From Saprospiraceae bacterium (GTDB lineage: Bacteria; Bacteroidota; Bacteroidia; Chitinophagales; Saprospiraceae), in NCBI GenBank assembly GCA_019187225.1, contig JABAQQ010000026.1, positions 124,001-188,000 of the forward strand: DNA of 64,000 nt. The letters are read 5' to 3'. Numbering within the stretch: the first letter of the stretch is position 1; every line of letters begins with the position of its first letter. Of the stretch, positions 2,223-17,577 are shown piece by piece. The translations under genes were made by a program, and so were the position numbers. The notes below the pieces were generated by a model. That model was not told the DNA's origin, searched no databases, and saw only the letters and a program-made list of their open reading frames with translations.

Positions 2223-2699
2223 ATGAAAACACAGCTCCCGCCCTTTCAAAAGCAATTGCACAAGCCAAACGCCCAATATGATACTTCAACTGTATACACG
2301 GAACCTTCCCCTGTTTCCGTACAACAGATATACATTTCACCAGAGCAATATTTGTGGTTGGCCCGGCAAAAATTTGCTAAGGAGCCATTTCTGAAAAACG
2401 TTATGGCGGTAGTGGAGCAGCGAATGCCGGACAGTCTTAGTGTGGCATGCCTTGCCCAATCGGTCTTTTGCAGCCGTATTCATTTTTTTCGAAGGATAAA
2501 AGGGCTTACCGGGCAATCACCGAGTTGTTTTGTTCGGTCAATAAGGCTGTATAAGGCCCTTGAATTGCTTTGTACTACCGATCTCGGCGTCTCGGAAATT
2601 GCTTATTCTGTGGGCTTTGCCGATCCCAAATATTTCTCACGGGTTTTTGTTTTGGAATTCAAAACAAAACCATCTGAAGTGCGAAAAAAAAATATATGA
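2223..2699 (+). CDS. AraC-family transcriptional regulator (short)
   Basis: A 158-aa protein with one C-terminal AraC-type DNA-binding domain of two helix-turn-helix motifs. The first HTH is around LSVACLAQSVFCSRIHFFRRIK; the second has the family signature VSEIAYSVGFADPKYFSRVFVLEF. The N-terminal 70 residues are not a recognisable sugar-binding cupin or response receiver, so the signal is unknown. An in-frame TTG at 2205 could add six residues; ATG 2223 is preferred. It ends 72 bp before the PatG-type protease gene and runs the same way, so it is the obvious candidate regulator of the cyanobactin-like cluster. That role is inferred from position only. Confidence 0.85.
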   Translation: MKTQLPPFQKQLHKPNAQYDTSTVYTEPSPVSVQQIYISPEQYLWLARQKFAKEPFLKNVMAVVEQRMPDSLSVACLAQSVFCSRIHFFRRIKGLTGQSPSCFVRSIRLYKALELLCTTDLGVSEIAYSVGFADPKYFSRVFVLEFKTKPSEVRKKNI

Positions 2700-2771
2700 A
2701 TAAAGAAACATAAGTCCACCTGAGAAAAAAAAACTGTATGGTCATTTGCACCATAGGTTGTAAGACAGAAT

Positions 2772-4844
2772 ATGTTGAATGGTTGTGAAAATATCTTAAT
2801 GGTATTGCCCGAATTGGCTCTTGTTTGGGAACGAACCAAAGGCATACCTGAGGTAAAGATAGCAGTGCTGGACGGAGTAGTGGACCTCTCCCATTCTTGT
2901 TTTGAGGAAGCCCGATTGGAACGATTATCAGGCGACAATAAATGGGTATCCGGGCATGGAACGCACGTGACCAGTATCGTTTTCGGGCAGCATGGCAGTG
3001 AAGTTTGCGGCATTTCTCCAAACTGTAGCGGATTGTTGATCCCGATTTTTAAAGAGACCCCGAATGGAGAAATTGCCTGTTCACAGTTGGATCTGGCGAG
3101 GGCCATTATGCAAGCTGTGGAAGCGGGTGCACATATTATCAATATCAGTGGGGGGCAAAATTCCAGGAACCCGGAAGCGGAAGATTTTTTAAAGCAGGCA
3201 CTTCAGTTATGTAATGACAGGAGGGTAATGGTAGTGGCTGCTGCGGGTAACGATGGCTGTGCTTGTATTCATATTCCGGCGGCCTCTCCCATTGTACTGG
3301 CTGTCGGTGCAATGGACAACTCGGGAAATCCGCTCGATTTCAGCAATTGGGGCAATGCTTACATGGCCAACGGGATTCTTGCACCCGGATATGGTATTAC
3401 AGGTGCGAAAGTTGGAGGAGGCACCCAGACCAGAAGCGGAACCAGCTATGCTGCGCCCATTATTTCAGGTATTGCAGGGTTGTTTTTAAGCGAACAAATC
3501 CGGCTTGGCCGAACACCCGACCCGATTGCCATAAAGGAGTTGCTGTTGCGAACATCGGAGCCTTGCATGCTTGGCGACGCCAACGCGTGTTTACGGTATC
3601 TGAAAGGTAAAATCAACCTGCCGGCTGCCTTGGAAGCATTCGATCAAAACCAAAATACAACATCTGGCTATAACATTCAAAAATTACAGTATATGGATGA
3701 CGATCAGACCAATAACCTACCAACAAACGAGACCCTCCCTGAAGTCAATGCCGCTGTGGTTCCGTCTGAAGAAGTCTCAACAATGGGATCGCTTTCTCCT
3801 GCAACCATTGCACAAGGTCAGCCTGAAATTATCACTCGGTCGAATCATGCCGTTTCTGGAACGGTGACCGGCGACAGTGGTAAACAAACTTCCACAATTG
3901 GGTCAAATGCTCCGGCTCACGAAAAAACATTCAATATGAATTCTCTACCTAACATAAACATGCGATTCCCGAACAATCCCGGCATTTTGCAGTCGGGCCT
4001 CGTCGAGCCTTCCGAGTGCTCCTGTCAAAAAGAAAAACACGAGCATTCCGATGCTACACCTCAATTGATCTATGCGCTCGGAACTTTGAATTATGAGTTC
4101 ATCAATGAAGCCAGAAGGGACTCTTTCATTCAAAATATGCCCGAACCGCAACCAAATGTCAGGCCTAACCCGGATGACCCGCTTCAGATGCTCAACTACC
4201 TGAACACGCACAAATACGAGGCAGCCAGCCTGATCTGGACACTGAACCTCAACACGACTCCTATTTATTCCATATATCCCACAGGGCCGTACAGCAGTAA
4301 TATATACGACATTTTGATTGATTTTCTTCGCGATCAACATGACGCTGCTACAAATGCAGAGCGGATTTCTATTCCGGGCGTCGTGGTTGGCAAAGTTGCA
4401 TTGATGTCCGGACAGGAAGTCCCGGCCGTTTCGCCAGAACCGAGGGGAATGTACAACTGGAAAAGATCTGACATTGTCAATGCGTTAGGTGGTCCCAGCA
4501 TTGATGTTGACGAACTGACCAATTTCCTCGACCGGATCTATTATGAAATTCGCAACCTCGGCCTGAGTTCGCAAGACCGGGCAATGAATTATTCGGCAAC
4601 GAATGCATTTCAGGCTGCCCAGGCATTCGAACAGGCTTTTAAAAGCGATCTTCAGTTGGACAGCATCGGTGTAGAAAGAAGCCCGGTATGCCGCCCGGGT
4701 TCCGACTGCTGGGATGTCATGCTCACCTTCTTCAACCCGAGGGAACGGCTGACAGTGGCAAGGAGAGTATTTCGGTATACCATAGACGTGAGCGATGTGG
4801 TTCCGGTAACTATCGGCGAAATGCGCAGCTGGTCTGTTTACTAG
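2772..4844 (+). CDS. Subtilisin-like (S8) protease with PatG-type C-terminal domain, cyanobactin maturation protease family
   Basis: 690 aa. Residues 1-300 are a subtilase domain with a complete catalytic set: Asp34 in AVLDG, His62 in GHGTHV, oxyanion Asn160 in AAAGND, and Ser225 in SGTSYAAP. A low-complexity Ser/Thr/Asn linker follows (about 325-410). Residues from about 415 to the end match the PatG/PatA C-terminal domain of cyanobactin proteases as I know it: IYALGTLNYEF with EARRDSF, SLIWTLNLNTTPIYSI, SIPGVVVGKV, GQEVPAVSPEPRGMY, LNFLDR-like NFLDRIYYEIRNLG, ERSPVCRPGSDCWDV, and a terminal TIDVSDVVPVTIGEMRSWSV. In cyanobactin pathways such proteases remove leaders (PatA) or cleave and macrocyclise cores (PatG). 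There is no signal peptide, so it probably acts in the cytoplasm. The genes that follow all carry a cyanobactin-like leader motif and are the likely substrates. No YcaO enzyme is nearby, so the product chemistry is unknown. Confidence 0.92.
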   Translation: MLNGCENILMVLPELALVWERTKGIPEVKIAVLDGVVDLSHSCFEEARLERLSGDNKWVSGHGTHVTSIVFGQHGSEVCGISPNCSGLLIPIFKETPNGEIACSQLDLARAIMQAVEAGAHIINISGGQNSRNPEAEDFLKQALQLCNDRRVMVVAAAGNDGCACIHIPAASPIVLAVGAMDNSGNPLDFSNWGNAYMANGILAPGYGITGAKVGGGTQTRSGTSYAAPIISGIAGLFLSEQIRLGRTPDPIAIKELLLRTSEPCMLGDANACLRYLKGKINLPAALEAFDQNQNTTSGYNIQKLQYMDDDQTNNLPTNETLPEVNAAVVPSEEVSTMGSLSPATIAQGQPEIITRSNHAVSGTVTGDSGKQTSTIGSNAPAHEKTFNMNSLPNINMRFPNNPGILQSGLVEPSECSCQKEKHEHSDATPQLIYALGTLNYEFINEARRDSFIQNMPEPQPNVRPNPDDPLQMLNYLNTHKYEAASLIWTLNLNTTPIYSIYPTGPYSSNIYDILIDFLRDQHDAATNAERISIPGVVVGKVALMSGQEVPAVSPEPRGMYNWKRSDIVNALGGPSIDVDELTNFLDRIYYEIRNLGLSSQDRAMNYSATNAFQAAQAFEQAFKSDLQLDSIGVERSPVCRPGSDCWDVMLTFFNPRERLTVARRVFRYTIDVSDVVPVTIGEMRSWSVY

Positions 4845-4922
4845 GAAATTGTTTGAGGTTTCTCTGCCAGGCCAAAGACCTTGACTTAACATTCATCTTA
4901 GTATCCATCAATATTTCACGAT

Positions 4923-5111
4923 ATGAAAAATCCATTTCAATGCCAACCTTCACCGCGTCAGTTGCGGGTAAAACAAGTGAAACGGGAAAAGACAAACCTG
5001 ATCAATCCTTCCGGCGCTTGCGATTGCTGCCAAACTTGCAGAAGTGCCGAAAGTTATGCAGCCCGGAATTTGTGTCTTGCTAATTGTGAAGCGGCAGGCT
5101 GCACATGCTGA
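4923..5111 (+). CDS. Cys-rich candidate precursor peptide with cyanobactin-like leader
   Basis: 62 aa, beginning MKNPFQCQPSPR. The N-terminus fits the motif shared by the five ORFs of this locus (M1, K/R2, P4, P9, R12 fixed). After a basic stretch (RQVK-type residues 15-23) and NPSG, the last 30 residues hold eight cysteines at 33, 35, 36, 39, 51, 55, 60 and 62, ending in Cys at the C-terminus. This leader-plus-Cys-rich-core layout fits a ribosomally made, modified or disulfide-rich peptide. It lies 78 bp after the PatG-type protease stop, on the same strand. There is no Sec signal peptide. I know no family for the core; the precursor role is inference. Confidence 0.75.
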   Translation: MKNPFQCQPSPRQLRVKQVKREKTNLINPSGACDCCQTCRSAESYAARNLCLANCEAAGCTC

Positions 5112-5225
5112 CCAACCCCGGAGGGGTGTCAGATTGAAAAATTTCTTTCAAATTGTTAATGCGAGCTATTAACAGTATCGCCCGTATTGATTTATATTTC
5201 CAGTGCAACTGTATCTCCAGCACTT

Positions 5226-7448
5226 ATGAAAAATCCACCACTTGCAGAACCGGTTCGACGGGATTTTTTGACCGGTACTGTTTCTCTCAAAAGCATAAAA
5301 TCCGCCGTCCCGATACAACTTCCCGATTCATCGCAGGCTGAATCAGGTGATGTAACCGTCATACCTGTAAACGGAGACGAGACGTGGATCAGTGTTGCTG
5401 CCATCCCCAACGAAACAATTGATCCTATTAAAATATTTATTGAAGAAATTCGATATACGATCGACGATCTTTCCAAAAGAATTGAAAATGAAAAGATTAC
5501 ACCAAGCGGCCCGGAGGCTCATCTGCAAGAACTTGAAAGACAATTAGCCCAGAAACAAACGAGGCTGGACAGATTATATTCCGGAGAGTTGAGTATAGAC
5601 CGGGATATTGTCAGGGAGTATGCAAAATGGAAGACGGGCCCGCGATATTTTACGTCGCCATTTTTCAGATTTGAGGGCGCCACCTTTGCAGCGATTGGCC
5701 CTGGTCCCTTAATCATTGGTAATACCGAAGTATCAAAACTTGCTGTTATCCCGGCTTTTCCCGGGATATCCTATAATCCGCATGAACTGTTAATGCCATT
5801 TTCCGAGAATTATTATGGAGTATGGAAGGGTGAAAATTCAAAAAAGGTATTATCTACAGCGTTTTCAACCGATTTAAATCATTATTTTTCTTTTGCCTTA
5901 CATGTCGGGGAGAATGGAACAACGATGGCGGAGGCCTTTCGCATTGATGACAATAGCAATTATAATTACGGGGTGGCACTCATTCATTCCTGTTTTTCTA
6001 TGGAGATGCACCAGGGGGCTTTGTTTTTCCAAATATTTATATGGGATGGAGATGAATTTAACCTGCGTTTGGCCAGGTTTGACGGAAATGCAACCACAGT
6101 ATTCGAATATGAGTTAGACGATGGCCGATCTTTCTGGAAGCATCCTGTGTTACCTGAACCCATGGAGAACGAAGGCGTTATCGACCCATTGGAACCCGGA
6201 TTTTTTGAAACGACCAATATGAAGTCTTTTGGCGGCAAGTTGTTCCTCATCCTCAATGGAGGTGAAGATGACGGGGCAATGAACAACTTGTTCTATTTTG
6301 ATACGGAAAGTGATGAAGATAGATTTGTAGAAGTCAGAATGCGTCATTATAAAACAGAGCCTGGGAGCGTGTTGAAAGACGTTTTCTTGTGCAGAATAGA
6401 GGTTTTTAAGGAAGGACTTTATTTCGTATATCGGAAGCGAGGCGAGCTCTACTACCGGTTGGGAGTTTGTAATCATCCGTTTGCTACCTCTCCAGATTTC
6501 AGACCTATCCAACTACCTGACGAATGTGTCCTTTCCACCCATCAAATTGCCGTAACCGGATCAGTATTGTATTTGATATTAAAAAACGAAACGGGTACGA
6601 AATACTTTCTTTATTCATTCGATGGAGAAACATTTACGGATCTGACATCAAAATTCAGTAGCATTACCATAGGCAGTTGCTCCAGGGTATGGACAAATAG
6701 TAAAGGCGAGTTGTTGGTCTATGCAAAAGAAAAAGACGATTCGGGTCTGCCATATAAGGTCTATTCTCTCCGGGATGTCGAATCGCGCTCCTCCTCCGAA
6801 TTCAGCAACGGCATTTTACCACCGGCTGCCCCATATCGCCCCATTCTATACATGGGTAAAAATTTTGCCCCTAATAGGACAAGAATGCATAGAACCTATA
6901 TCAACAATTGCACACCGGGATATGCATCCGCCTGTCACGACCAATACGAAATCCGCGCAGGCGGGAGCTACGGTTTCAGTACCCGGACAACCCTGAAACG
7001 CACTTCTGACCTTGCTTTGCGTTCGGCTCAAGGCCCTGCGCCTGCGCCTGCTGCCCCTGTTACCGGACTGGAATTTGTATCTGCAAGCAGAGAGGTGGAA
7101 GGGCCGCCGGAAATGCCTGTGGAAAACAAAGCTCAATGGGTAGCCACATTGTTGTACACTGACAAATTACTTCCGGAAGCGACAAATGAACTGACGTCCA
7201 GGTTGGACAAACTGGCCAGCTCGCTGAAATCGAATTCGCAACAGATCATATTGTCCATTTACGCGGACGACTCAGGGAATACTGAGGACAACCTGCAATT
7301 CTGTGACGCTCTTGCTGCCGCCCTGTTAGCCTTTTTGATTAAAAGTGGGATCAAGAAGAACCGAATCGTTGCGAATTCGTCGGTGGGGTCGGGCGCTTTT
7401 AGCAACAAAGCTTTGAACAACCGACTGGAAATCAGTTTGTTGCCTTGA
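5226..7448 (+). CDS. Large leader-motif protein with coiled coil and OmpA-like C-terminus
   Basis: 740 aa from the ATG at 5226; a TTG at 5187 would add 13 residues, but the ATG restores the locus motif (MKNPPLAEPVRR: P4, P9, R12). Residues about 65-135 are charged and coiled-coil-like (EEIRYTIDDLSKRIENEK, LQELERQLAQKQTRLDRLY). The middle, about 140-600, is rich in beta-forming repeats with aromatic/Gly-Asp turns, plausibly a beta-propeller; this is not certain. A Pro/Ala linker (APAPAAPV) leads into an OmpA-like domain at about 637-740 with IYADDSGNTEDN, then ALLAFLIKSGIKKNRI and the terminal NNRLEI signature. There is no Sec signal peptide. The presence of a precursor-type leader on a protein of this size is unusual; it may be a substrate or tethering partner of the upstream protease. 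Confidence 0.8.
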   Translation: MKNPPLAEPVRRDFLTGTVSLKSIKSAVPIQLPDSSQAESGDVTVIPVNGDETWISVAAIPNETIDPIKIFIEEIRYTIDDLSKRIENEKITPSGPEAHLQELERQLAQKQTRLDRLYSGELSIDRDIVREYAKWKTGPRYFTSPFFRFEGATFAAIGPGPLIIGNTEVSKLAVIPAFPGISYNPHELLMPFSENYYGVWKGENSKKVLSTAFSTDLNHYFSFALHVGENGTTMAEAFRIDDNSNYNYGVALIHSCFSMEMHQGALFFQIFIWDGDEFNLRLARFDGNATTVFEYELDDGRSFWKHPVLPEPMENEGVIDPLEPGFFETTNMKSFGGKLFLILNGGEDDGAMNNLFYFDTESDEDRFVEVRMRHYKTEPGSVLKDVFLCRIEVFKEGLYFVYRKRGELYYRLGVCNHPFATSPDFRPIQLPDECVLSTHQIAVTGSVLYLILKNETGTKYFLYSFDGETFTDLTSKFSSITIGSCSRVWTNSKGELLVYAKEKDDSGLPYKVYSLRDVESRSSSEFSNGILPPAAPYRPILYMGKNFAPNRTRMHRTYINNCTPGYASACHDQYEIRAGGSYGFSTRTTLKRTSDLALRSAQGPAPAPAAPVTGLEFVSASREVEGPPEMPVENKAQWVATLLYTDKLLPEATNELTSRLDKLASSLKSNSQQIILSIYADDSGNTEDNLQFCDALAAALLAFLIKSGIKKNRIVANSSVGSGAFSNKALNNRLEISLLP

Positions 7449-7532
7449 CAATTTTGCAAATCAAATATGAACGCGGTTCAAATGCTTTTCGCACCGGTTC
7501 ATATATTTCTTAACGTTCTAAATTTAAACGAC

Positions 7533-7766
7533 ATGAAAATTCCATCACAGGCTATGCCGGCCAGACGCGCTGCAAGTCGCCGCCCTATGGCAAATATGGT
7601 AAAAACTTCAGGTTTGGGTCAAGCGCTCAGCGGTATCGGGTGTTTGCCTTGCCAATTTTTAAAAGGACGGGACAAGCAGGATTGCATGGCTGCTTGCTCC
7701 AGTATTGTATCCCCGGTCGGCGATATATTGGGCGACATGGCGCCGCTTATGTTGAGCCTCATTTGA
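7533..7766 (+). CDS. Small candidate precursor protein with leader motif (4 Cys)
   Basis: 77 aa beginning MKIPSQAMPARR, so it carries the locus motif (P4, Q6, P9, R12). A basic, Met-rich segment follows (ASRRPMANMVKT), then a Gly-rich stretch (SGLGQALSGIG) and a core with CLPC, CMAAC and a hydrophobic tail (DILGDMAPLMLSLI). The ATG at 7533 is chosen over an upstream in-frame start at 7467 because it lines up with the motif and follows an AT-rich leader (CTAAATTTAAACGAC) like that of the other small genes. Its function is unknown. The gene lies 84 bp after the OmpA-like gene on the same strand. Confidence 0.7.
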   Translation: MKIPSQAMPARRAASRRPMANMVKTSGLGQALSGIGCLPCQFLKGRDKQDCMAACSSIVSPVGDILGDMAPLMLSLI

Positions 7767-7817
7767 TATTTGGCAGGAAAAGATGGCAACGTTTATTCAA
7801 TTTTAAACTTTCTGACC

Positions 7818-8072
7818 ATGCGAGCGCCCGTCCAGTCATTCCCCGTCAAAAGGCAAAACCGCGCAGTCGTCGCGTTTTATCCAGGGTTGACGCCTTCACT
7901 CTATCCATGTTTTGGTGCCAATGGCCATTTTATTTTCTGCAATGATAACGATCTGTGTTTAACGGAAGAAAATGGTCAACCAACGTGTATGCGACCAAAA
8001 CGAACACCAACACCATCGCCACCACGTGGAAATTATGGGGGTAGTATTTATGGGCCTTTACCTCCCCTTTAA
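7818..8072 (+). CDS. Cys/Pro-rich candidate precursor, one 4-Cys module
   Basis: 84 aa beginning MRAPVQSFPVKR, an exact PxQxxPVxR leader, followed by AVVAFYPGLTPS. The core is one 4-Cys module (CFGANGHFIFC, CLTEENGQPTC) and a Pro-rich tail (RTPTPSPPRGNYGG). Its leader and 5' untranslated region are closely similar to those of the gene at 8295, so the two are duplicates with divergent cores. Starts further upstream (7640, 7770) are less likely because the shared upstream sequence TTTATTCA to CTGACC is conserved as DNA but its reading frame is not. There is no signal peptide. Confidence 0.75.
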   Translation: MRAPVQSFPVKRQNRAVVAFYPGLTPSLYPCFGANGHFIFCNDNDLCLTEENGQPTCMRPKRTPTPSPPRGNYGGSIYGPLPPL

Positions 8073-8159
8073 TACTGTACCTCCGCTGTCGAAGCTTTGT
8101 CGCACCTGATGGTAACAATACGACTGCTGTATGGAATGCTCCATAAGATGGCTGTTCTG

Positions 8160-8266
8160 TACTTTGCAATGGTCATTTCCGAAGGAAATCTGTCCACGCA
8201 GGCTTTTTGAGAGCGTTCCGAAAAGCGTAGGTTGGACAGATTCCTTGCGGGAATGGCAAAGTGTAC
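8160..8266. repeat. Imperfect inverted repeat between the two paralogous precursor genes
   Basis: The left arm (about 8160-8199) holds TACTTTGCAATGG, then GGAAATCTGTCCACGC. The right arm (about 8225-8266) holds GCGTAGGTTGGACAGATTCC, then GGAATGGCAAAGTGTA. An inner pair GCTTTTTGAG / GCGTTCCGAAAAGC adds to the stem. The fold would place a long hairpin in the mRNA upstream of the 8295 gene. It may be a terminator/attenuator or a decayed palindromic element. No T-run follows. Confidence 0.6.
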
Positions 8267-8294
8267 TTATTCACTTTTTAAAAACTGTCTGACC

Positions 8295-8702
8295 ATGCGA
8301 ACCCCCATCCAGTCTTTTCCTGTTAAAAGGAAGAACGACAATGCCGTTGCTTTTTATGCCGGGTTGACACCATCGGCTGAATGCAGGGGCGAGAGAGATT
8401 ACAGCCGTGTTGTAATAGATTGCCCACCAGGTTTCAGATGTGTGCGTAATCATAATGGTGAGCCTGCCTGTCTTCCACCGCCTCCTGTGCCGCCGAGGGA
8501 AAATAAGCCTTACACCTTATGCATGGGAGAGAGAGGTTACAGCCATGTTGTACTAAGATGTCCACGGGATCATAGATGTGTTCGTAATTACGATGGTAAA
8601 CCTGACTGCCTTCCACCGGCCCCAGCGCCACCCCGGGCAAACAAGCCCAATAGTTCGCATCAAAAACAATATGATTCTGTGAGCTCACCGTTGGCGAGTT
8701 AG
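8295..8702 (+). CDS. Cys/Pro-rich candidate precursor, two tandem 4-Cys modules
   Basis: 135 aa beginning MRTPIQSFPVKR, followed by AVAFYAGLTPS, near-identical to the leader of the 7818 gene. The core is a tandem repeat of about 44 residues: CRGERDYSRVVIDC with CVRNHNGEPAC and a Pro-rich spacer PPPPVPPRENKP, then CMGERGYSHVVLRC with CVRNYDGKPDC and PPAPAPPRANKP. Each module has four cysteines, like the single module of the neighbour. Ser/Gln-rich residues end the protein. Module duplication inside a conserved leader resembles the cassette organisation of RiPP precursors, although the modules could equally be small disulfide-bonded domains. It is the last gene of the cluster. Confidence 0.8.
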   Translation: MRTPIQSFPVKRKNDNAVAFYAGLTPSAECRGERDYSRVVIDCPPGFRCVRNHNGEPACLPPPPVPPRENKPYTLCMGERGYSHVVLRCPRDHRCVRNYDGKPDCLPPAPAPPRANKPNSSHQKQYDSVSSPLAS

Positions 8703-8821: not shown

Positions 8822-8904
8822 CATAGAAACAAGAGTCATGCGAATGAGGGGTTAACAGGCGCGTGACCTGTTAGCCCCTCATTCGCATGACTCTTGTTTC
8901 TATG
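8822..8904. repeat. Long hairpin, 38-bp arms, 7-base loop
   Basis: The arms 8822-8859 and 8867-8904 are complementary over 38 bp, with a single position that becomes a G-U pair in RNA. The arm starts CATAGAAACAAGAGTCATGC. It separates the cyanobactin-like cluster from the sigma/CHAT cassette. It could act as a strong bidirectional transcription barrier, or be a palindromic mobile remnant. Confidence 0.85.
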
Positions 8905-9071: not shown

Positions 9072-9680
9072 ATGACATTGAGAAGGGAGCAGTTGTCGCC
9101 ACGTGGAAGTACTTCGGCGTTTGACAACCAATCGTTTTTCGAGGCGCTGGGGCGGGCCGAACCGGCAGCCATCCGGCAGTTGGCAGCCAAAATTGTGACG
9201 GGCGTGCGGCAGATGTCGGCGCGAGCAGGCCTGTCACCGCAGGACGCCGAGGAAATCCTGAACGACGCCGTGGTGATTACGATTTCTAATATCCGGGAAG
9301 GCAAGTTCCGGTTCATGGACTTCAGCCCGGCCACCTACGCCTCCGGCGTTGCGCGGAAACTGATCGCCAATCGCGTCCGCGTCAAAAAACCGGCGGCACA
9401 GGAACTCGACAACTTACCCTTGTTGTCCGATATGAACCCTGAAGCCTATGTGCAGGACAAGGAAAGACAAAAGCTGGTGGGCCAATTATTGCAACAATTG
9501 GAAGAAACCTGCCGCCAACTGATACAACTGAAATATTTTAACACCCTCCGGGACGAGGAGATCATTGACAAGCAATTGACGCCGTTCACATCCGTCAATT
9601 CGCTGAAAAGCAAGCGGAGTCAATGCCTGAAAAAACTGGCTGGACTGGCCCTGGAGGCAGGTATCACAAGTGTCATTTAG
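9072..9680 (+). CDS. Sigma-70 family (ECF-like) RNA polymerase sigma factor
   Basis: 202 aa from ATG 9072. Residues about 45-95 resemble region 2 (AGLSPQDAEEILNDAVV, then FRFMDFSPATYASGVARKLIANRVR), and the C-terminal part resembles region 4 (LEETCRQLIQLKYFNTLRDEEI). The HTH in region 4 is loose, as in the Bacteroidota sigma genes that sit beside TPR-CHAT proteins. It is followed 30 bp later by a single-pass membrane protein with an anti-sigma-like N-terminus, then a TPR-CHAT protease, all in one direction. This order suggests a signalling cassette in which the membrane protein holds the sigma factor inactive. The target genes are unknown. Confidence 0.75.
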   Translation: MTLRREQLSPRGSTSAFDNQSFFEALGRAEPAAIRQLAAKIVTGVRQMSARAGLSPQDAEEILNDAVVITISNIREGKFRFMDFSPATYASGVARKLIANRVRVKKPAAQELDNLPLLSDMNPEAYVQDKERQKLVGQLLQQLEETCRQLIQLKYFNTLRDEEIIDKQLTPFTSVNSLKSKRSQCLKKLAGLALEAGITSVI

Positions 9681-9710
9681 TTATCCCGATATTCCAAAAC
9701 CTCCGGCATT

Positions 9711-10631
9711 ATGGCAAAATTCGACATAGAAGCATATTTAGACGGGGAACTGAACCCGGACGAGCGGGCGGCATTCGAGGCTGAAATGGATCGGGACCCG
9801 GAATTTGCGCAGAAAGTTCGCCTGATGCAGCAACTGACGGGCGACTTGAAGGTGCAATTGCTGCGCGACCACGTGACGCGAACCATCCGGGACGGCAGCG
9901 CCGGGGGAGGGAAAAAGAGCACTCCCTTCTGGTTGGGCGGCCTGGCCCTTGTCCTGCTGTTTTGCGCGGCGGGATATTTTTTTTTGATTTCGGATAGAAC
10001 AACTCCCGCTTCCGGCGAAACCCCGTCGCCACAAACTCCCCCTTCCCACGAATCGCCGCAGCAAACACCCGGCGGACACCCCGAAAATCCCGGTGAGAAT
10101 CCCATCCTGGAGCCATTGAAACCCAAAATTCCCACTGACCGACCGGTCGCCGGCATCAAACGGCTTCCCGACCCCCGCTATCCCGCTCCGAACATTCGCG
10201 GGGGCGGACCGCAGGATACCGTCCTTGCGACCTTGCTCGACCAAATTTGGTACATGGACTTTCCTCCAGCCGGCGCGCGCTTTGCGCCGCCTTTCGACGA
10301 AGCGGGACAGCTGTTGCAGCAGCGGGATTTCTCCAAAGCCTACCTCCGGCTGGAATTGCTAGAAAGAACGAAGACAGACAACGACACCCTGCGATTTCTG
10401 AAAGGGTATTGTCTCCTGGAAATGGGGCAGGGGGGACAGGCCGTGGATTATCTTGAACAAACTGCAGACGACAAGCCCACCTGGAGCGAATACAGGCAGT
10501 GGTACCGTGCTCTGGGTCTGTTGTTGTCCGGCGACGGGGATGAGGCGAAAAAGGTTTTGGAAATGATCCGCAATGCCCCTAAACATCATTTTCAGCGGCA
10601 GAGTGCGAAGGCGCTGGAATTGCTGAAATGA
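9711..10631 (+). CDS. Membrane anti-sigma-like protein with TPR-like periplasmic domain
   Basis: 306 aa. The N-terminal 60 residues (IEAYLDGELNPDERAAFEAE, then DRDPEFAQKVRLMQQL) look like the helical anti-sigma domain of zinc-less membrane anti-sigma factors. One membrane helix lies at about 73-93 (WLGGLALVLLFCAAGYFF). It is followed by a Pro-rich spacer (about 97-140) and a helical C-terminal domain (about 190-306) with a TPR-like pattern (DFSKAYLRLELL, LRFLKGYCLLEMGQGGQAVDYLE). It probably holds the upstream sigma factor at the membrane and senses a periplasmic partner, perhaps the downstream TPR-CHAT protein. That link is inference from gene order. Confidence 0.75.
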   Translation: MAKFDIEAYLDGELNPDERAAFEAEMDRDPEFAQKVRLMQQLTGDLKVQLLRDHVTRTIRDGSAGGGKKSTPFWLGGLALVLLFCAAGYFFLISDRTTPASGETPSPQTPPSHESPQQTPGGHPENPGENPILEPLKPKIPTDRPVAGIKRLPDPRYPAPNIRGGGPQDTVLATLLDQIWYMDFPPAGARFAPPFDEAGQLLQQRDFSKAYLRLELLERTKTDNDTLRFLKGYCLLEMGQGGQAVDYLEQTADDKPTWSEYRQWYRALGLLLSGDGDEAKKVLEMIRNAPKHHFQRQSAKALELLK

Positions 10632-10661
10632 TTTTTTCACTATCCTTCGTATCAACGCACC

Positions 10662-13529
10662 ATGAAAACATTCCTCTTTTCCCTGTTTTTCTGCGCTCCC
10701 CTGTGGGTTGCAGCGCAAACGCTGGATTCAGTTGTCCTTAAACACATGGACAGTACCCGGAATGTGGCCTTTTCCCATGCAAGAAACGGCGATTTTGCCC
10801 GCGCTCTGGAGGTAAGCGATGCCGCCATAAAATTTACCACAGAAAAAACGGGGCGCCAGTCAGTGATCTATGGGGATTGCTGCCACACCCGGGGGGTGTT
10901 GTTGTATTTAAAAGGCGATTATACCGAATCTGAAAAATGGTTCATTGAAGCTGTTTCCGTTCTGGAACAGACATTGGGAAAGGAAAGCCTCGGATATACG
11001 AAAAGCCTGAACATGCTGGCGAATCTGAATTGCGAAACAGGTAAATACGAACAAGCGGAAATACTTTATATAGAAATTAAAAATATCCGGGAAAAAATAC
11101 TGGGAAAGAACAATGCAAACTATGCTTTGGTCACCAACAACCTGGCACTTTTGTATTATGATATGGGAAAATATGAGCAGGCGGAACCACTTTATATCGA
11201 AGCGGAAAGTATCTGGAGCAAAACGATCGGAATGGCGCATCCCGACTACGCGGCAAATCGGATCAACCTTGCTTTGTTGTACAAGACTATGTGCGAATAT
11301 GAAAAAGCCGAACAACTTTACCTCGAAGCCAAAGATATTTTTGAAGTTCGTTTAAACGATCGCAAGCATCCTTTTTATATGAACTGCCTGAACAACCTGG
11401 CAGCTTTGTACAATGAAGTAAATCAGGATGAAAAAGCCGAATCGCTTTACCTCGAGGCTAAAAACATTCGCGCCGATCTCCTGGGCAAAGAACATCCCCA
11501 CTATGTTGGAAGCCTGATCAATCTGGCGAGTCTGTACGCAAAAGCGAGGCAAGATGAAAAAGCCGAACTGCTGTTTTTGGAAGGAAAAGAAATTTTTGAA
11601 GAGCGCATCCATAACCGCGAACATCCCTATTACATAACCTGCCTCGCTAACCTGGGAATCTTGTATATGGATACCGGTCAACTTGAAAAAGCGGGACCCT
11701 TACTTCTTCAAGCCAAAGACATTCAGGAAAAAGTAATGGGAACGCAACACCCTGAATATGCTAAAAAACTGTATGACCTGGCCGGATTTTATTTGAAGTC
11801 CGGTATGGATGAAAAAGCGGGACAATTCCTGATTGAACTCGCCGGTTTGAACCGGTTTTTGATGACAAGGGCAACACACCATCTTTCAGAGCGCGAATTG
11901 TATAATTATTTGAGCAAATTTTCAAACGCCCAAAACCTGACATTGTCATATGCCCAACTGACCGGCGGCAAAGATCTGACTCCAGCGTGCTACGACAACA
12001 ACCTTTTTTACAAAGGCTTCCTGCTCAATGCCGCTTCCCGGCTGAATGTTCTCGCCGAATCCTCTCCCGAAGCGCGCCATATCAACAATCAACTCAAAAG
12101 CTATCAGAGACGGCTCGCCGCTCAATACGCAATACCAATCACCGAACGAAAGAATGTGGCCGAATTGGAGGAACAAGCCAATGTCGCGGAAAAAGAACTC
12201 GCCCGCACGGTAGCCGGTTACGCCGAAGCGGTTCGGCAAGTCAGTTGGAAGGATGTGCAGGCTGCACTGGAACCCGGCGAAGCCGCTATAGAATTTGTGC
12301 GTTTCAACTATAGCAACCCTGTCCCAACGGACAGCGTTCTGTATGCTGCATTCGTGCTGCGCCCCGGTCTTTCGGCTCCGTTATATATTTCTTTGTTTGG
12401 AGAAAAAGGACTGGCTGCCCTGCTTCAGCAAGGCGCAGAAAAACAAGCAGAACACATTAATGCACTATACCGAAATCCCGCCCTTTATGCAATGTTGTGG
12501 CAGCCTCTGGAACAAGCGCTGTCCGGCGCAAAAACTGTCTATCTCTCACCCGACGGCCTGCTCCACCGCCTCAATCTCCGGGCCGTCGCCACTCCCGACG
12601 GCCATATCCTCGCCGACCGCTACCGGCTCATCCGCCTGAACAGCACCCGCCAATTGGTCATTCCTCCTTCCGCCCAAGCAGCGGCCAACGACGCCCTTGT
12701 TTATGGCGGCATCCGGTACGACATGGATGCCGGGGCCATCCAAAAAGCCAATGCTTCGCTCCAACAATTTAACTCCGGCGGCACGCGCGGCGAACTGGAT
12801 TTTCACAACGCCGACAGCACGCTGCGCCTCGGCTATCGCGGTCCCGGCGAAGGCGGCGCCTGGAACTATCTGCCCTTCACGGAAGTGGAAGCCGGACTTT
12901 TACAACACGACCTGCAGGAAGCCGGTACTTCGGTGCGAATGTTGAGCGGCTATGTCGCCACGGAGGAATCCTTCAAGTCTGTCGGCCATCCCTCACCGCG
13001 CATCCTCCACTTCGCCACGCATGGGTTTTTCTTTCCCGATCCGAAAAATACGGTGGACGGTAGACGGTTGACGATGGACGAACAAGAGACAGTGTTTAAA
13101 ATCAGTGAACACCCGATGATCCGCTCGGGCCTGCTGCTGGCGGGCGCCAACCACGCCTGGAAAAGCGGCAAACCTGCGCAACCCGGCATGGAAGACGGCA
13201 TCCTCACCGCCTACGAGATCAGCCAGATGGACCTCTCCAACACCGAACTGGCGGTGCTCTCGGCCTGTGAAACGGGACTGGGCGACATCGCGGGCAGCGA
13301 AGGGGTGTACGGCCTGCAACGGGCCTTCAAGATCGCCGGAACGCATTATTTGCTCATGTCGCTGTGGAAAATCCCCGACTTAGAGACGCAACAGTTGATG
13401 ACCACTTTTTACCGCCACTGGTTGAAGGACGGGCAGTCGGTGCCGGATGCCTTTCAGGCGACCCAAAAGGAAATGCGCGGGAAGTACAAGGACCCGTTTT
13501 TGTGGGCGGGGTTCATTCTCGTGGAGTGA
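10662..13529 (+). CDS. Secreted TPR-repeat CHAT-domain protein (caspase-like protease)
   Basis: 955 aa with a signal peptide (MKTFLFSLFFCAPLWVAAQ). Residues about 40-400 contain eight or more tetratricopeptide (kinesin-light-chain type) repeats of about 42 residues, with YxQAExLYxEAKxI and HPxYAxxLxNLAxLY motifs. A helical linker leads to a CHAT domain from about 640 to the end. The catalytic pair is visible: His787 in HFATHG and Cys869 in SACETG, followed by GVYGLQRAFKIAG and ending DPFLWAGFILVE. CHAT domains are caspase/separase-like cysteine peptidases, often in proteolytic signalling or defence. The signal peptide points to the periplasm or outside. It forms a cassette with the sigma and anti-sigma genes, 30 bp after the latter. 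Confidence 0.9.
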   Translation: MKTFLFSLFFCAPLWVAAQTLDSVVLKHMDSTRNVAFSHARNGDFARALEVSDAAIKFTTEKTGRQSVIYGDCCHTRGVLLYLKGDYTESEKWFIEAVSVLEQTLGKESLGYTKSLNMLANLNCETGKYEQAEILYIEIKNIREKILGKNNANYALVTNNLALLYYDMGKYEQAEPLYIEAESIWSKTIGMAHPDYAANRINLALLYKTMCEYEKAEQLYLEAKDIFEVRLNDRKHPFYMNCLNNLAALYNEVNQDEKAESLYLEAKNIRADLLGKEHPHYVGSLINLASLYAKARQDEKAELLFLEGKEIFEERIHNREHPYYITCLANLGILYMDTGQLEKAGPLLLQAKDIQEKVMGTQHPEYAKKLYDLAGFYLKSGMDEKAGQFLIELAGLNRFLMTRATHHLSERELYNYLSKFSNAQNLTLSYAQLTGGKDLTPACYDNNLFYKGFLLNAASRLNVLAESSPEARHINNQLKSYQRRLAAQYAIPITERKNVAELEEQANVAEKELARTVAGYAEAVRQVSWKDVQAALEPGEAAIEFVRFNYSNPVPTDSVLYAAFVLRPGLSAPLYISLFGEKGLAALLQQGAEKQAEHINALYRNPALYAMLWQPLEQALSGAKTVYLSPDGLLHRLNLRAVATPDGHILADRYRLIRLNSTRQLVIPPSAQAAANDALVYGGIRYDMDAGAIQKANASLQQFNSGGTRGELDFHNADSTLRLGYRGPGEGGAWNYLPFTEVEAGLLQHDLQEAGTSVRMLSGYVATEESFKSVGHPSPRILHFATHGFFFPDPKNTVDGRRLTMDEQETVFKISEHPMIRSGLLLAGANHAWKSGKPAQPGMEDGILTAYEISQMDLSNTELAVLSACETGLGDIAGSEGVYGLQRAFKIAGTHYLLMSLWKIPDLETQQLMTTFYRHWLKDGQSVPDAFQATQKEMRGKYKDPFLWAGFILVE

Positions 13530-14225: not shown

Positions 14226-14564
14226 ATGAGAAAGCACCTTTTTTTCTTCGCCCTCCTCCTCCCTATTTCTTTCGCCTTCACGACTCCGGCAAACGACCGC
14301 TCCGAAACCGGATGCCCGCCCCCCGCCAACGTGGTACTGACCAATCAATACGGCGGCGCTGCCAGCTTCGACTGGGACGACTGCGGCTGCGGCGGAGAAT
14401 ACCACGTGTATTACATCTCTAATGGCCAGACAGGCCCCGAGTATGTGACCGGCAACTCAGAAATTACGATTTCCAGCCTGACGACGGGGATATATCAGTT
14501 TCACTTCTATACGACGTGCCGGGGAGAATCGAGCTCTATTATCGTGGTAGAGGTGATTATGTGA
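14226..14564 (+). CDS. Small secreted protein, fibronectin-III-like fold (hypothetical)
   Basis: 112 aa with a clear signal peptide (MRKHLFFFALLLPISFAF). The mature part has the motifs CPPPANVVLTNQ, AASFDWDDCGCGGEYHVYY and ITISSLTTGIYQFHFYTTC, the strand-turn pattern of an FnIII-like beta sandwich with five cysteines. The ATG at 14226 is chosen over the longer open frame from 14115 because the signal peptide begins there. A tandem, 5'-truncated copy follows at 14620. Function unknown. Confidence 0.7.
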   Translation: MRKHLFFFALLLPISFAFTTPANDRSETGCPPPANVVLTNQYGGAASFDWDDCGCGGEYHVYYISNGQTGPEYVTGNSEITISSLTTGIYQFHFYTTCRGESSSIIVVEVIM

Positions 14565-14619
14565 AAATAACCATATTTGAGACAGGTCGGAAAACCTGTA
14601 TTGGAAATTGAGGCCACTC

Positions 14620-14929
14620 CCTCCCTATTTCTTTCGCCTTCACGACTCCGGCAAACGACCGCTCCGAAACCGGATGTCCGCCCCCTACCAACGTAGTATT
14701 GACCAACCAATCCGGCGGCGCTGCCAGCTTCGACTGGGATGACTGCGGCTGCGGCGGAGAATACCACGTGTATTATACCGTCAACGGCCAGACAGGCCCC
14801 GAGTATGTGACCGGCAACTCAGAAATTACGATTTCCGGCCTGACGACAGGAATATATCAGTTTTACTTCTATACGACATGCAGGGGAGAATCGAGCTCGA
14901 TCATCGTGGAAGAAGTAATAATGGGATAA
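14620..14929 (+). pseudogene. 5'-truncated tandem copy of the preceding secreted protein gene
   Basis: The DNA from about 14620 is near-identical to 14260-14560. It keeps the frame from LPISFAFTTPANDRSETGC to EEVIMG but lacks the start codon and most of the signal peptide; a TGA sits in frame just upstream (in ATTGAGG). Only a doubtful TTG at 14699 could start translation. Few substitutions have accumulated, so the duplication looks recent. Confidence 0.75.
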
Positions 14930-14968
14930 TATGAGATCAGAACATGGGATGCTTACAAGTAATATTTT

Positions 14969-15047
14969 TTGACAGGATTGACAAGATTTACAGGATTTAC
15001 GTCCTTTTTCGGAGAAAAAATCCTGTAAATCTTGTCAATCCTGTCAA
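14969..15047. repeat. Perfect hairpin, 30-bp arms, 19-base loop
   Basis: The arms 14969-14998 and 15018-15047 are perfect reverse complements; the left arm begins TTGACAGGATTGACAAGATT. The arm itself is made of ACAGGATT-like subunits. It lies between convergent genes and may block read-through. Confidence 0.85.
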
Positions 15048-15125
15048 CATTTAAACTTGCGGGACGGCCTCTTATCTTTTTTTCAGGTATCAGCTACAGG
15101 CGATTCTGATTTCAAAAGCTTCCAT

Positions 15126-16520
15126 CTATTTTGAAAGAAGCCAGTTCTTAAACGCTACGTTGGATTCCTTCATGATTTCAGTTTTAAGGCTTGTAGCGTA
15201 TTTACCGTCCCATTTCAGCAGGGCCAGTTTTCGGGTGTAACCTGTAAATTTTAACATGCCTTCCGATAGTCTTGGCGCGACGTTGCGGTTGCGGCGCAGG
15301 TATTTATCGAAGGCATCCAATTGAGCGAGCAACAAGTCGAAATAACTGTCATCCTTCCAATACAACTCGCACCAGGCTCTGATTGTCAAACCTTTGGATT
15401 TGTAAATATCCTGAGGCTCGCTAAATGTATGGTTCAGTATTTCTATCGCTTTGGTATATTCCTGTTGTTCAAAATACCATTGACCCATAGCCAACGCCAG
15501 CGCGTTTTCGCGTACAGAAGCATCGAGCGCATATTGGTAGTTTTCCATAAAATGCCGCGTCCAATCGAATTCCCGACAGCGCGTACCCGCAGTGACAATG
15601 TTGTGAAAAATCTGCTCATTGAGTTTCCCATTTACGAGGAAGCAATCATACTCCAAGCCGGTTTTGTGCAATTCAAAACTGGTAGAAACAAATTCCGTCT
15701 TGCCCTTATTGATGAGGCGGTTGCAATAATTCAATAGTATTTTCAGAACGTTGGACTGGTCGTCGGGGCGGAATGTCCGGATATGCGTGATGAACAGACC
15801 AACGAGTTCCCCCAAATCTGCCGTTGAATCGTGCGTATCTTGGAGTACAGCCAGTTTTTTATAGAGAATGAGTAAGGGATTGCTCGTATCAACGCCGTTT
15901 GAAGCATTTGCCACCGTTTTCGCGGCGCCCACCGCGTTTTCCCAAGCATTCAGGCTGCATTGCAACTTTGCCGCCGTCAATGTTTTGAACGCTTCAAAGT
16001 TTTTTAACGCATTGATCAGCGCCTCCCGGCCGTTGGTCACCATATCTGTACCCGGGTGCCCGAAATACAACAGGTTCAGATCCTTTTTTTCCCGGAAATA
16101 CAACTCGTCGCGGTAAGGCATGGCGTCCAGGGTCTTGTCCAACTCCCACACTTTTTTTTCAAATACGTCATAACAGTCGGGCCGTTCAGAATAAGCCTGC
16201 ACTAACAGTTTTTTTTGCTTTATTTCCTCCTTCTCCAATTGCAGCGCGACCAGGTACTGCTCCAGCAGGGCGGTGAAGTCCGACATCAGGTTGAGCAGTT
16301 TCTGGTGGTCATAAGCCCGCCCCGGAAATATCTTTCTGAATACCTTTTCCTTGGCGAGCGCAGGTGATGCGAATTCCGGGTGATGCTCCCGAAGCAGGAG
16401 ATACAGTTTTACGATGGCCGGGTTGGCGTTGTAAAACGGCGATTTCAGGAACTGAAGCAGGCGCTTGAGTTCCGGCGCAGTGAGGATGCGGAGCTGGCGG
16501 ACGAGTTTGCTGTGGTGCAT
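15126..16520 (-). CDS. Hypothetical helical-repeat protein, Bacteroidota-type
   Basis: 464 aa from ATG 16520 (a TTG at 16547 would add nine residues). All-helical, charged sequence: an N-terminal block (LRILTAPELKRLLQFLKSPF) followed by TPR-like helices, e.g. VRENALALAMGQWYFEQQEY then TKAIEILNHTF. No signal peptide, membrane helix or catalytic motif. It resembles the protein at 40477-41952 in length, helix spacing and N-terminal layout (ALLPAHKQKLLDFFSSKF against the block above), so both probably belong to one family of unknown function. No operon partner: both neighbours are far or divergent. Confidence 0.7.
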   Translation of the reverse strand: MHHSKLVRQLRILTAPELKRLLQFLKSPFYNANPAIVKLYLLLREHHPEFASPALAKEKVFRKIFPGRAYDHQKLLNLMSDFTALLEQYLVALQLEKEEIKQKKLLVQAYSERPDCYDVFEKKVWELDKTLDAMPYRDELYFREKKDLNLLYFGHPGTDMVTNGREALINALKNFEAFKTLTAAKLQCSLNAWENAVGAAKTVANASNGVDTSNPLLILYKKLAVLQDTHDSTADLGELVGLFITHIRTFRPDDQSNVLKILLNYCNRLINKGKTEFVSTSFELHKTGLEYDCFLVNGKLNEQIFHNIVTAGTRCREFDWTRHFMENYQYALDASVRENALALAMGQWYFEQQEYTKAIEILNHTFSEPQDIYKSKGLTIRAWCELYWKDDSYFDLLLAQLDAFDKYLRRNRNVAPRLSEGMLKFTGYTRKLALLKWDGKYATSLKTEIMKESNVAFKNWLLSK

Positions 16521-16650
16521 GTGTGCGGGTATGCCTGTTTCAGGCAAATTCGGCGCGCAAAATAAACATTTAATTCCTTATTGGATGTTTATATCAAGAA
16601 AATGATTATCAATATTTTAGCTCTTAAATTTAAAATTACAAGTGAAGATT

Positions 16651-16685
16651 TATTCCTGATTTCGCGCTGAAATTGTCTTTGCCTG
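16651..16685 (+). promoter_or_regulatory. Recurring 36-bp intergenic motif, copy 2
   Basis: Begins TATTCCTGATTTCGCGCTGA and continues AATTGTCTTTGCCTG; it matches 1971-2006. It lies after an AT-rich block between divergent genes, about 120 bp before the start at 16806. Confidence 0.35.
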
Positions 16686-16805
16686 AGAAAAGTCGTGGGT
16701 ACATTTTTGTTCTGTCAACGATAAAAGACGCAGTGCTTTTCTTATTCAGCCGGAAAACCATCCTGAAAAGCACGTTCACTTCGAACGAAATAGCATCCTT
16801 GATCA

Positions 16806-17567
16806 ATGAAAACCCAGGTTGTCATCCTCAGGCAACAATGCCTGACCTATGCCCAAAAAACCGAAATGTGGGCCGTCTATCGCGGATTCTACCACTACAC
16901 GGAGCAATCTTTTATGGAGCGCATCCACCGGAACACACACTTTTCGCTGTATCTGCACGGAGGGAAAATCGTCGGTTTCACCGGCTTGAGAATAGACAAA
17001 ACCGAAGTGAACGGACGCCGCCGGTTGTTGATTTACCTTGGCCAAACGGTCGTCACCCGGCAGTATCGCGGGCAGTCGCTGCTCCCTGCGACCGTCCTCT
17101 TATTGGCGATGAAATATTGGAAAGAATCGCTGACTTCCGATGTGTGGTGCTGGTACGATGCGTTGAGTTACAAGGCTTATCTGGCCTGCGCCAAATGCGG
17201 AACTGACTATTATCCTTCTCGCCGCACAGAAACGCCGATGCACGTCCGGGAGATGCGCGATTTTGTGGGGAAAGCCCGGTACGGCGATGCCTACTGCCCT
17301 CAGATGGGAACGGTCGCAAAAGAAGTCAACTACCTGAACGACCCAACGGTGAATATTTTTGAAGAAGACCTGCAAGACCCCGATGTGGCGTTTTTCGCTC
17401 AAGCCAATCCGCGTCATTCCGAAGGTCACGGGCTGCTCGTTTTTGCACCGCTCAACCGGAAAAATGTGTTCAATTTGGTGCGCCGGTACTTTAGCCGCCC
17501 GTTTGGTGGCCGCAAAAAGGCTTCGGGAACAGCTGCGCCTTCCGGTAAGCCCCGGGTGGCGTTTTAA
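16806..17567 (+). CDS. Hypothetical protein, possibly GNAT-like acyltransferase
   Basis: 253 aa, soluble. The N-terminal 150 residues have the order seen in acetyltransferase folds: AQKTEMWAVYRGFY, then strands LYLHGGKIVGFTGLRI and LLIYLGQTVVTRQYRGQSLLP, where the last resembles a short V-x-x-x-x-R-G-Q acyl-CoA-loop. I cannot confirm it. The C-terminus is basic (YFSRPFGGRKKASGTAAPSGK). It ends 10 bp before the epimerase-like gene and is probably in one operon with it. Confidence 0.65.
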   Translation: MKTQVVILRQQCLTYAQKTEMWAVYRGFYHYTEQSFMERIHRNTHFSLYLHGGKIVGFTGLRIDKTEVNGRRRLLIYLGQTVVTRQYRGQSLLPATVLLLAMKYWKESLTSDVWCWYDALSYKAYLACAKCGTDYYPSRRTETPMHVREMRDFVGKARYGDAYCPQMGTVAKEVNYLNDPTVNIFEEDLQDPDVAFFAQANPRHSEGHGLLVFAPLNRKNVFNLVRRYFSRPFGGRKKASGTAAPSGKPRVAF

Positions 17568-17577
17568 ACTTCAACCG

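Follow-up and report, generated by a model that had tools for sequence, protein, structure and literature searches.

Can a cyanobactin-type leader protease serve as the only processing enzyme of a locus? The question is raised by positions 2223 to 8702 of a 64,000-nt stretch of a Saprospiraceae genome (contig JABAQQ010000026.1, positions 124,001 to 188,000 of the forward strand; hereafter the window), in which an initial annotation had described a subtilase gene followed by five genes sharing an N-terminal motif and had proposed that a leader-cleaving protease acting alone would be a new variant of the cyanobactin pathway. The sequence comparisons reported here bear out the observation and support the proposal in part: the locus very probably encodes a PatG-independent leader-tag maturation system, in which a PatA-type protease would operate without YcaO, PatF, or PatG on products that are often Cys-rich.

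The window protease and its tagged genes

The gene at 2772 to 4844 (plus strand, as are all features of the locus) encodes a 690-aa protein that scored 680.5 bits against TIGR03895, the PatA/PatG protease family, for a curated cutoff of 421.05. Its Peptidase_S8 domain (2853 to 3557, above the Pfam cutoff) carries the triad Asp34/His62/Ser225, unchanged across two alignments (6 and 51 sequences, the window being in both), and is followed by a PatG_D domain (PF18047; 4068 to 4388; 58.2 bits, cutoff 27) and a PatG_C domain (PF18065; 4512 to 4832; 130 bits, cutoff 25.9), which together make up the domain of unknown function (DUF) of these enzymes. The profile matches bear out the complete triad and PatG-type C-terminal domain claimed for this protein. 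In a PDB comparison, the top entries were 4h6w, an N-terminal cyanobactin protease (298.6 bits), and the PatA-type 3zxx (284.3 bits); the PatG DUF 4uvq scored 220 bits and the PatG macrocyclase 4aks 155.7 bits. Judged by these scores, the window protease is nearer to PatA than to the PatG macrocyclase. Its Asp-to-His spacing is 28 residues, without the long PatG-type insert. This spacing is 96 residues in the PatG-type second protease of locus L059, the single one of 27 second proteases (a label given by match length alone) for which the distance pattern worked, and about 71 by hand count in that of L079, further sequences being judged by eye. The match to the type VII mycosin family TIGR03921 (128.7 bits) fell below its cutoff of 278.75. 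No signal peptide was seen on the protease or the precursors, as judged by eye rather than by a program.

A search of all six frames of the window for M[KR]xPxxxxPxxR at an ATG returned five sites (4923, 5226, 7533, 7818, and 8295), all on the plus strand inside 2223 to 8702, where 0.17 per window were expected from 100 block shuffles; the reported motif sharing by five same-strand downstream genes is thereby confirmed. The looser pattern M..P....P..R returned seven sites (0.85 expected), the additional two lying on the minus strand at 43301, with an internal stop, and at 54281. Precursor 1 (4923 to 5111; 62 aa) has a putative leader of residues 1 to 30 ending in LINPS and a predicted Cys-rich core, GACDCC...CTC; no convincing copy was found elsewhere in the genome, the one other match (E of 0.05) having a stop inside. 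Precursor 3 (7533 to 7766; 77 aa) bears the leader motif MKIPSQAMPARR, and its cleavage site is unclear. In precursors 4 (7818 to 8072; 84 aa) and 5 (8295 to 8702; 135 aa), the predicted leader spans residues 1 to 27 and ends in GLTPS (to nt 7898 and 8375, respectively), followed by a core with four Cys in the former and by two repeated 4-Cys units in the latter. Both share a 93-nt repeat of 76% identity (7805 to 7897 and 8282 to 8374, from a search that extends without gaps), which starts 13 nt ahead of the respective start codon and covers all but the last nucleotide of the GLTPS Ser codon; their cores differ. The core of precursor 5 consists of two 129-nt repeats of 75% identity (8381 to 8509 and 8519 to 8647). 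By eye, a cleavage-like [IL]xPS, corresponding to the recognition sequence II (RSII) signal behind the leader of cyanobactin precursors, was recognized in three of the five tagged genes. A position matrix built from loci L050 to L129 of other genomes, with the window excluded from training, ranked the open reading frames (ORFs) at 8232 to 8702 (precursor 5; score, 21.2) and 7770 to 8072 (precursor 4) first and second among the 704 of the window. The remaining three tagged genes came 5th (precursor 3; score, 4.0), 14th, and below the top 15. A 23-nt inverted repeat (83%) lies at 8174 to 8255, separating the genes of precursors 4 and 5, and another of 38 nt (97% complementary, 7-nt loop) at 8822 to 8904, directly after the last precursor gene; the latter is likely a terminator-like hairpin or the remnant of a mobile repeat.

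The view of the downstream genes as five small precursors did not hold for the second of them (5226 to 7448), which encodes a protein of 740 aa that bears the leader motif MKNPPLAEPVRR without a clear cleavage site and has an OmpA-like C terminus. This end, its sole recognizable part, scored 21.8 bits, under the Pfam cutoff of 27.2. The protein was matched at an E of ≤0.001 in 31 of 198 genomes of the order, its own included. The listed matches outside its own gene fall in residues 583 to 739, and it was rejected as a common component of such loci because it has relatives only for the OmpA-like end.

Pfam and NCBIfam scans of the window proteins revealed no PatF-, oxidase-, or transporter-type gene within 2223 to 8702, and no YcaO was seen there, as the initial annotation had stated. 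YcaO (PF02624) was likewise found in none of the seven Bacteroidota genomes with the protease or its DUF, the window's own included; in the same search, 5 of 14 control genomes matched. The PatB family TIGR04220 had no match among the seven window proteins scanned, and no macrocyclization signal (recognition sequence III [RSIII]) was seen by eye in the window peptides. Cyanobactin gene clusters have two proteases, A and G, according to the excerpted text of a review (PMC4663559). The genome of the window holds one PatG_C match and one TIGR03895 match over the cutoff, and no second protease. It is this second, macrocyclizing protease and its C-terminal signal that constitute the distinctive gap.

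Lone loci in other genomes

TIGR03895 exceeded its cutoff in 2 of 60 near relatives, and PatG_C was found in 5 of 298 genomes of the order and in 2 of 395 of the phylum, the window's own genome being included in all these counts. Small downstream genes on the same strand with the tag, sometimes degenerate, were seen by eye in six of six others (G006, G248, G272, G278, G290, and G521); the variant proposed for the window is not peculiar to its genome. In G248 (L046), an ORF starting with MNLPIQAK encodes a Kunitz/BPTI domain behind the tag (PF00014; E of 2.6e-15), and Kunitz_BPTI was the single family over the cutoff in a scan of ten peptides each with NCBIfam and Pfam. Protease and DUF are separate genes in G290. 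DUF proteins without a subtilase domain number one in G272 and two in G290.

A contig scan with the alignment of six proteases yielded 313 encoding stretches, the best 80 of which were used, with a bias toward near relatives. The loci span up to ∼9 kb on each side, some stopping at contig ends; several relatives are metagenome assemblies, and the small ORFs are predicted genes. We propose to call lone PatA leader-tag loci those combining a PatA-type protease and its DUF with tagged precursors nearby and no YcaO, PatG, or PatF in the locus, as found in the window. The lone set comprised 36 loci with a full-length protease (17 Cyanobacteriota, 10 Pseudomonadota, 5 Bacteroidota, 2 Planctomycetota, 1 Acidobacteriota, and 1 Gemmatimonadota); the split protease of G290 and the window were excluded. 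Seven loci of the contig-edge type (L077, L081, L087, L099, L100, L103, and L120), which have no YcaO, second protease, or PatF in view but lie inside the cyanobactin block of the protease tree, were taken out of the lone set prior to the precursor, DUF-start, and linker counts; the neighbor-cluster comparison used 37 loci, L120 included. L058 and L112, outside that block, were omitted from the 37 loci taken as cyanobactin type. L071, L073, and L084, copies of L046, L044, and L045, were dropped from the precursor counts and from the 83-protease tree but not from the matrix counts, and they contributed to the position matrix.

A strict expression for the tag found 87 tagged ORFs in 51 of the best 80 loci. 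With the position matrix, 201 ORFs of L044 to L129 scored >8 bits and 171 scored >14 bits, against 5 and 1, respectively, of 13,396 shuffled ORFs; near 32 other subtilases, 1 of 959 ORFs scored >8 bits. Once duplicates had been dropped, 183 unique precursors scored >10 bits in 71 of 83 loci. A PatD-like YcaO scored >100 bits by protein search in 23 loci, and recognition sequence I (RSI) occurred in 26 of the 58 precursors of YcaO loci and in none of the 125 precursors for which YcaO was not in view. Among the latter, G[VILMA]x[PA][SQTL] was present in 57 (shuffles: mean, 6.9; maximum, 15). Because genuine prenylated cyanobactins, which have a second protease and FAGDDAE tails, are represented in this set of 125, the lone loci were separated out. 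In these, relatives of the window protease do keep tagged genes beside them: at least one precursor scored >10 bits in 33 of the 36 loci. With the PatG domains matched as well, neither of the two outcomes named in the initial annotation as refuting was observed. The 78 lone precursors, 7 of which are PatB-type proteins, showed neither RSI nor an RSIII-like tail, and 45 of them carried [VILM]x[PA]S; behind this recognized site, 27 of the 45 cores have at least four Cys. The 37 cyanobactin-type loci yielded 94 precursors, with RSI in 26 and an RSIII-like tail in 38. As for the three lone loci under 10 bits, L044 and L046 hold degenerate copies of the tag (by eye), and L114 holds one ORF at 6.3 bits. 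Support from Planctomycetota is thin (L114, as stated, and L128, whose match may be due to chance). The counted precursor of L049 (11.0 bits) also looks like a chance match, and one cyanobactin-type precursor crosses masked letters. Where a locus offered two or more usable precursors, identity was higher between leaders than between cores in 21 of 22 loci (44 of 46 pairs); tag-based selection favors the leader in this comparison, which left out YcaO loci and took in three of the window's five tagged genes and a small number of loci for prenylated cyanobactins. A core of the type PSGxxCxxCxxxC...LC..AC...C occurs in L057, L060, L113, L117, L118, and L045 (Pseudomonadota and Bacteroidota), and by eye window precursor 1 is similar.

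At the whole-genome level, 25 of the 31 genomes that hold lone loci outside Bacteroidota gave a single PatG_C match and six gave from two to five, one extra match being a fragment. In 13 of these 31 genomes, for all of which the assembly completeness is not stated, neither YcaO nor a second PatG_C match was found. In the genomes of L080 and L088 (G714 C30 and G717 C216), YcaO is on the PatG_C contig, ∼13 to 15 kb away on the opposite strand. A plasmid collection gave 10 matching records at an E of 1e-60, 5 of them from Streptomyces. In the four of these Streptomyces plasmids that were inspected (L138, L139, L140, and L143), proteins annotated as "S8 family serine peptidase" had S8, PatG_D, and PatG_C over the cutoffs; after these proteases come small "hypothetical proteins" that bear tags resembling PxQxPPVxR and, in most cases, sites resembling GVEA (by eye).

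The tree of 83 proteases contains a block of 44 rows (Shimodaira-Hasegawa-like approximate likelihood ratio test, 100) made up of 23 enzymes from YcaO loci, 14 from loci in which only a second protease or PatF is present, and the seven others. The window and the remaining lone enzymes fall outside this cyanobactin block, several on long branches. In a tree of the subtilase domain only (75 of the 83 proteases and 4 PatG, rooted with seven other subtilases as the outgroup), cyanobactin PatA and PatG were jointly nested among the lone enzymes, which formed the outer branches with moderate support; the deciding forks had 82 to 91% bootstrap, none of them starred. The window protease paired with that of G272 (94/82), two long branches whose join was flagged by the program as possibly false. 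Cyanobactin enzymes are likely nested within the lone ones, and this topology suggests that cyanobactins arose within a lone-type system and speaks against the window locus as a stripped-down cyanobactin cluster.

Proposed mechanism and alternatives

We propose that a PatA-type subtilase would recognize tandem precursors through the N-terminal tag MKxPxQxxPVxR and cut them after a second motif, [VIL]x[PA]S, probably within ∼45 residues of the tag; in the window, the protease at 2772 to 4844 would cut the precursors described above at the predicted leader ends. Cleavage is placed in the cytoplasm because neither protease nor precursors show a signal peptide to the eye. The released cores, often Cys-rich, would leave the cell by an unlinked route and then be oxidized; they would most likely be disulfide-bonded after export, or otherwise unmodified, and no heterocyclase, prenyltransferase, or macrocyclase would be involved. 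More speculatively, the PatG_D/PatG_C domain could act as the receptor of the tag, given that tag and DUF travel together, also where the tagged proteins (PatB-type proteins, the 740-aa protein) have no clear cleavage site, and the protease might free its DUF by cutting its own linker after VEPS.

The occurrence of the tag on these latter proteins (the PatB type being TIGR04220), which lack a clear site, means that it may do more than mark a cut. The N-terminal motif could then be an export or localization tag read by an unlinked transporter, the protease removing the leader later. We consider this unlikely, though worth keeping in mind, since motif and protease co-occur locally, no transporter-like cluster common to the 37 lone loci was seen by eye, and, as noted, no signal peptide was seen on either partner.

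Alignment and motif statistics revealed a look-alike of the cleavage site, V411-E412-P413-S414 (4002 to 4013), in the linker before the DUF. P413 and S414 are unchanged in 6 sequences, and S414 is conserved at ≥90% in 51. A first expression for the DUF start missed 24 of 83 proteases, and the linker test was redone by alignment. Of the lone proteases, 28 of 36 have a [VI]x[AP]S motif no more than 35 residues ahead of the DUF, as do the window protease and 46 of 46 others, which come from loci with YcaO (23), from loci with a second protease or PatF (16), and from the seven loci taken out of the lone set (shuffled linkers, 4.3 and 5.7). Three of the four Streptomyces enzymes have G[VL]RPS in the linker, and the reported cleavage by PatA follows G(L/V)E(A/P)S in the excerpted text of PMC10885120. 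Most simply, the linker site would be cut by the protease itself or by a sister molecule, which would free the DUF; no account of such a site was recognized in the portions of the open-license literature available. In 60 of the 80 proteases having the motif within 60 residues, it ends 10 to 15 residues before the DUF, and this fairly constant distance would also suit a pseudosubstrate that is not cut and holds the protease off until the DUF is displaced. We deem the latter rather improbable, as the site persists, in the form [VI]xP[SQ], in all four DUF proteins that lack a subtilase domain and with it any protease that could be inhibited in cis; its retention there favors release of the DUF over a mere protease brake. 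By eye, lone enzymes often have CxC directly after the linker site (ECSC at residues 415 to 418 of the window protease, DCGC), and most cyanobactin enzymes do not.

Several observations weigh against a self-sufficient leader-tag system or against parts of the mechanism outlined above. A clear cleavage site is missing from two of the five tagged window genes (5226 and 7533), and [VILM]x[PA]S as written from 33 of the 78 lone precursors. Eight of the 36 lone proteases have no linker site inside 35 residues, and that of Streptomyces L139 has no clear one. As to the receptor role, the PatG domain isolated from its protease did not bind PatE' by nuclear magnetic resonance, as given in the excerpt of PMC4259220, a result that counts against such a role at least in PatG. 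No exporter or tailoring enzyme common across phyla was seen among the top neighbor clusters (named by eye) of the 37 loci. YcaO occurs somewhere in 18 of the 31 lone genomes outside Bacteroidota, in some on the contig with the PatG_C gene, and modification in trans is therefore possible there. Since YcaO is found in these genomes and cyanobactins without D are known (PMC4603692, as excerpted), the absence of YcaO is not the novel part of the window locus.

That the window locus is a decayed or partial cyanobactin cluster, with the YcaO, PatG, and PatF genes lost or misplaced, would fit the TIGR03895 score above the cutoff, a leader motif that is that of cyanobactin precursors and PatB, and the YcaO elsewhere in those 18 genomes, but is very improbable given the lack of YcaO in all seven Bacteroidota genomes, the single PatG_C gene of its own genome, the same minimal set kept in 36 lone loci with a single PatG_C match in 25 of the 31 genomes, the absence of RSI or RSIII remnants from the 78 lone precursors, and the outer position of the lone systems, with moderate support, in the outgroup tree. 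The PatG-independent leader-tag system remains our preferred reading. It might be extended, tentatively and as a possibility that we hold with some reserve, to a general protein maturation system of at least six phyla, in which the DUF would read LPxQxxPVxR, cargo ranging from bacteriocin-like peptides to a Kunitz inhibitor would be freed at [VIL]x[PA]S, and the protease would release its own receptor domain at the copy of this site in its linker, with cyanobactins as a derived offshoot in which YcaO, prenylation, and a duplicated macrocyclizing protease were gained.

Among the neighboring genes, the one at 2223 to 2699, included in the originally described cluster, is likely a regulator and not a precursor: its ORF (2205 to 2699) matches the AraC-type helix-turn-helix family PF12833 (68.2 bits, cutoff 33.6), and G006 (PF12833) as well as, by eye, G248 and G272 also have an AraC-type gene on the upstream side of their proteases. 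Downstream, positions 9072 to 13529 hold a sigma factor-like gene (by eye), a TPR protein, and a 955-aa TPR-CHAT protease-type protein (CHAT, 194 bits). In the lone loci, the widest neighbor cluster, present in eight, looks by eye like signaling ATPases or kinases. Six cyanobacterial lone loci (L050, L055, L056, L075, L096, and L109) have in common a methyltransferase-like gene of 285 to 311 aa, the L050 copy of which belongs to PF04072 (LCM, leucine carboxyl methyltransferase-like); some lone systems may therefore modify their products. At L106, two matches to the PatA query (14342 to 16033 and 16222 to 17898) start like methyltransferases (by eye), a possible DUF-methyltransferase fusion. 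In cyanobacterial lone genomes, YcaO is mostly a frame of ∼750 to 790 codons.

Comparison with known systems

The leader and protease families of lanthipeptides differ from those of the window. Lanthipeptide serine proteases such as NisP, ElxP, and AmyP also remove a leader after a short motif, as described in the excerpt of PMC10885120, but no lanthionine enzyme was seen at the window locus. The excerpted review states that active cyanobactin clusters always encode A and G and that clusters were known only from cyanobacteria, and describes PatB and PatC as proteins of unidentified function (PMC4663559); the structure of the PatA/PatG DUF is solved and its role given as unknown in the available text of PMC4259220. 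No lone PatA system was recognized in the open-license literature, as far as its excerpts extend. A system stripped to a protease and tagged precursors makes the DUF and PatB/PatC questions directly testable: with only these components at the locus, the reader of the tag has to be the protease, its DUF, or an unlinked factor. Provided that the rooting is correct, cyanobactins would have originated from such systems, which would also offer a transferable pair of tag and protease with which disulfide-rich peptides could be released with a defined N terminus.

The conserved small proteins PatB, AcyB, and McaB (TIGR04220) start with the same tag as the precursors (the copy of L079, 5471 to 5713, scored 131.4 bits), which suggests that PatB is recruited by it. 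The YcaO-free prenylated cyanobactins of the anacyclamide/piricyclamide type (TIGR04446) share with the lone loci the absence of a heterocyclase, the leader motif, and a PatA; they differ in having FAGDDAE-like tails and a second protease of the PatG type, L064 and L108 being examples. Patellamide-type cyanobactins (PatA to PatG) have in common with the window and the other lone loci the PatA-type protease with its DUF, the LPxQxxPVxR leader, a PatA-like cleavage motif, and tandem precursors in which the leaders vary less than the cores. In contrast to them, the lone system, spread over several phyla, has a single protease, lacks D (YcaO), F, G, RSI, and RSIII, and has longer, often Cys-rich cores. 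The window locus would thus work like the first half of cyanobactin maturation, rather than being filed as a cyanobactin cluster.

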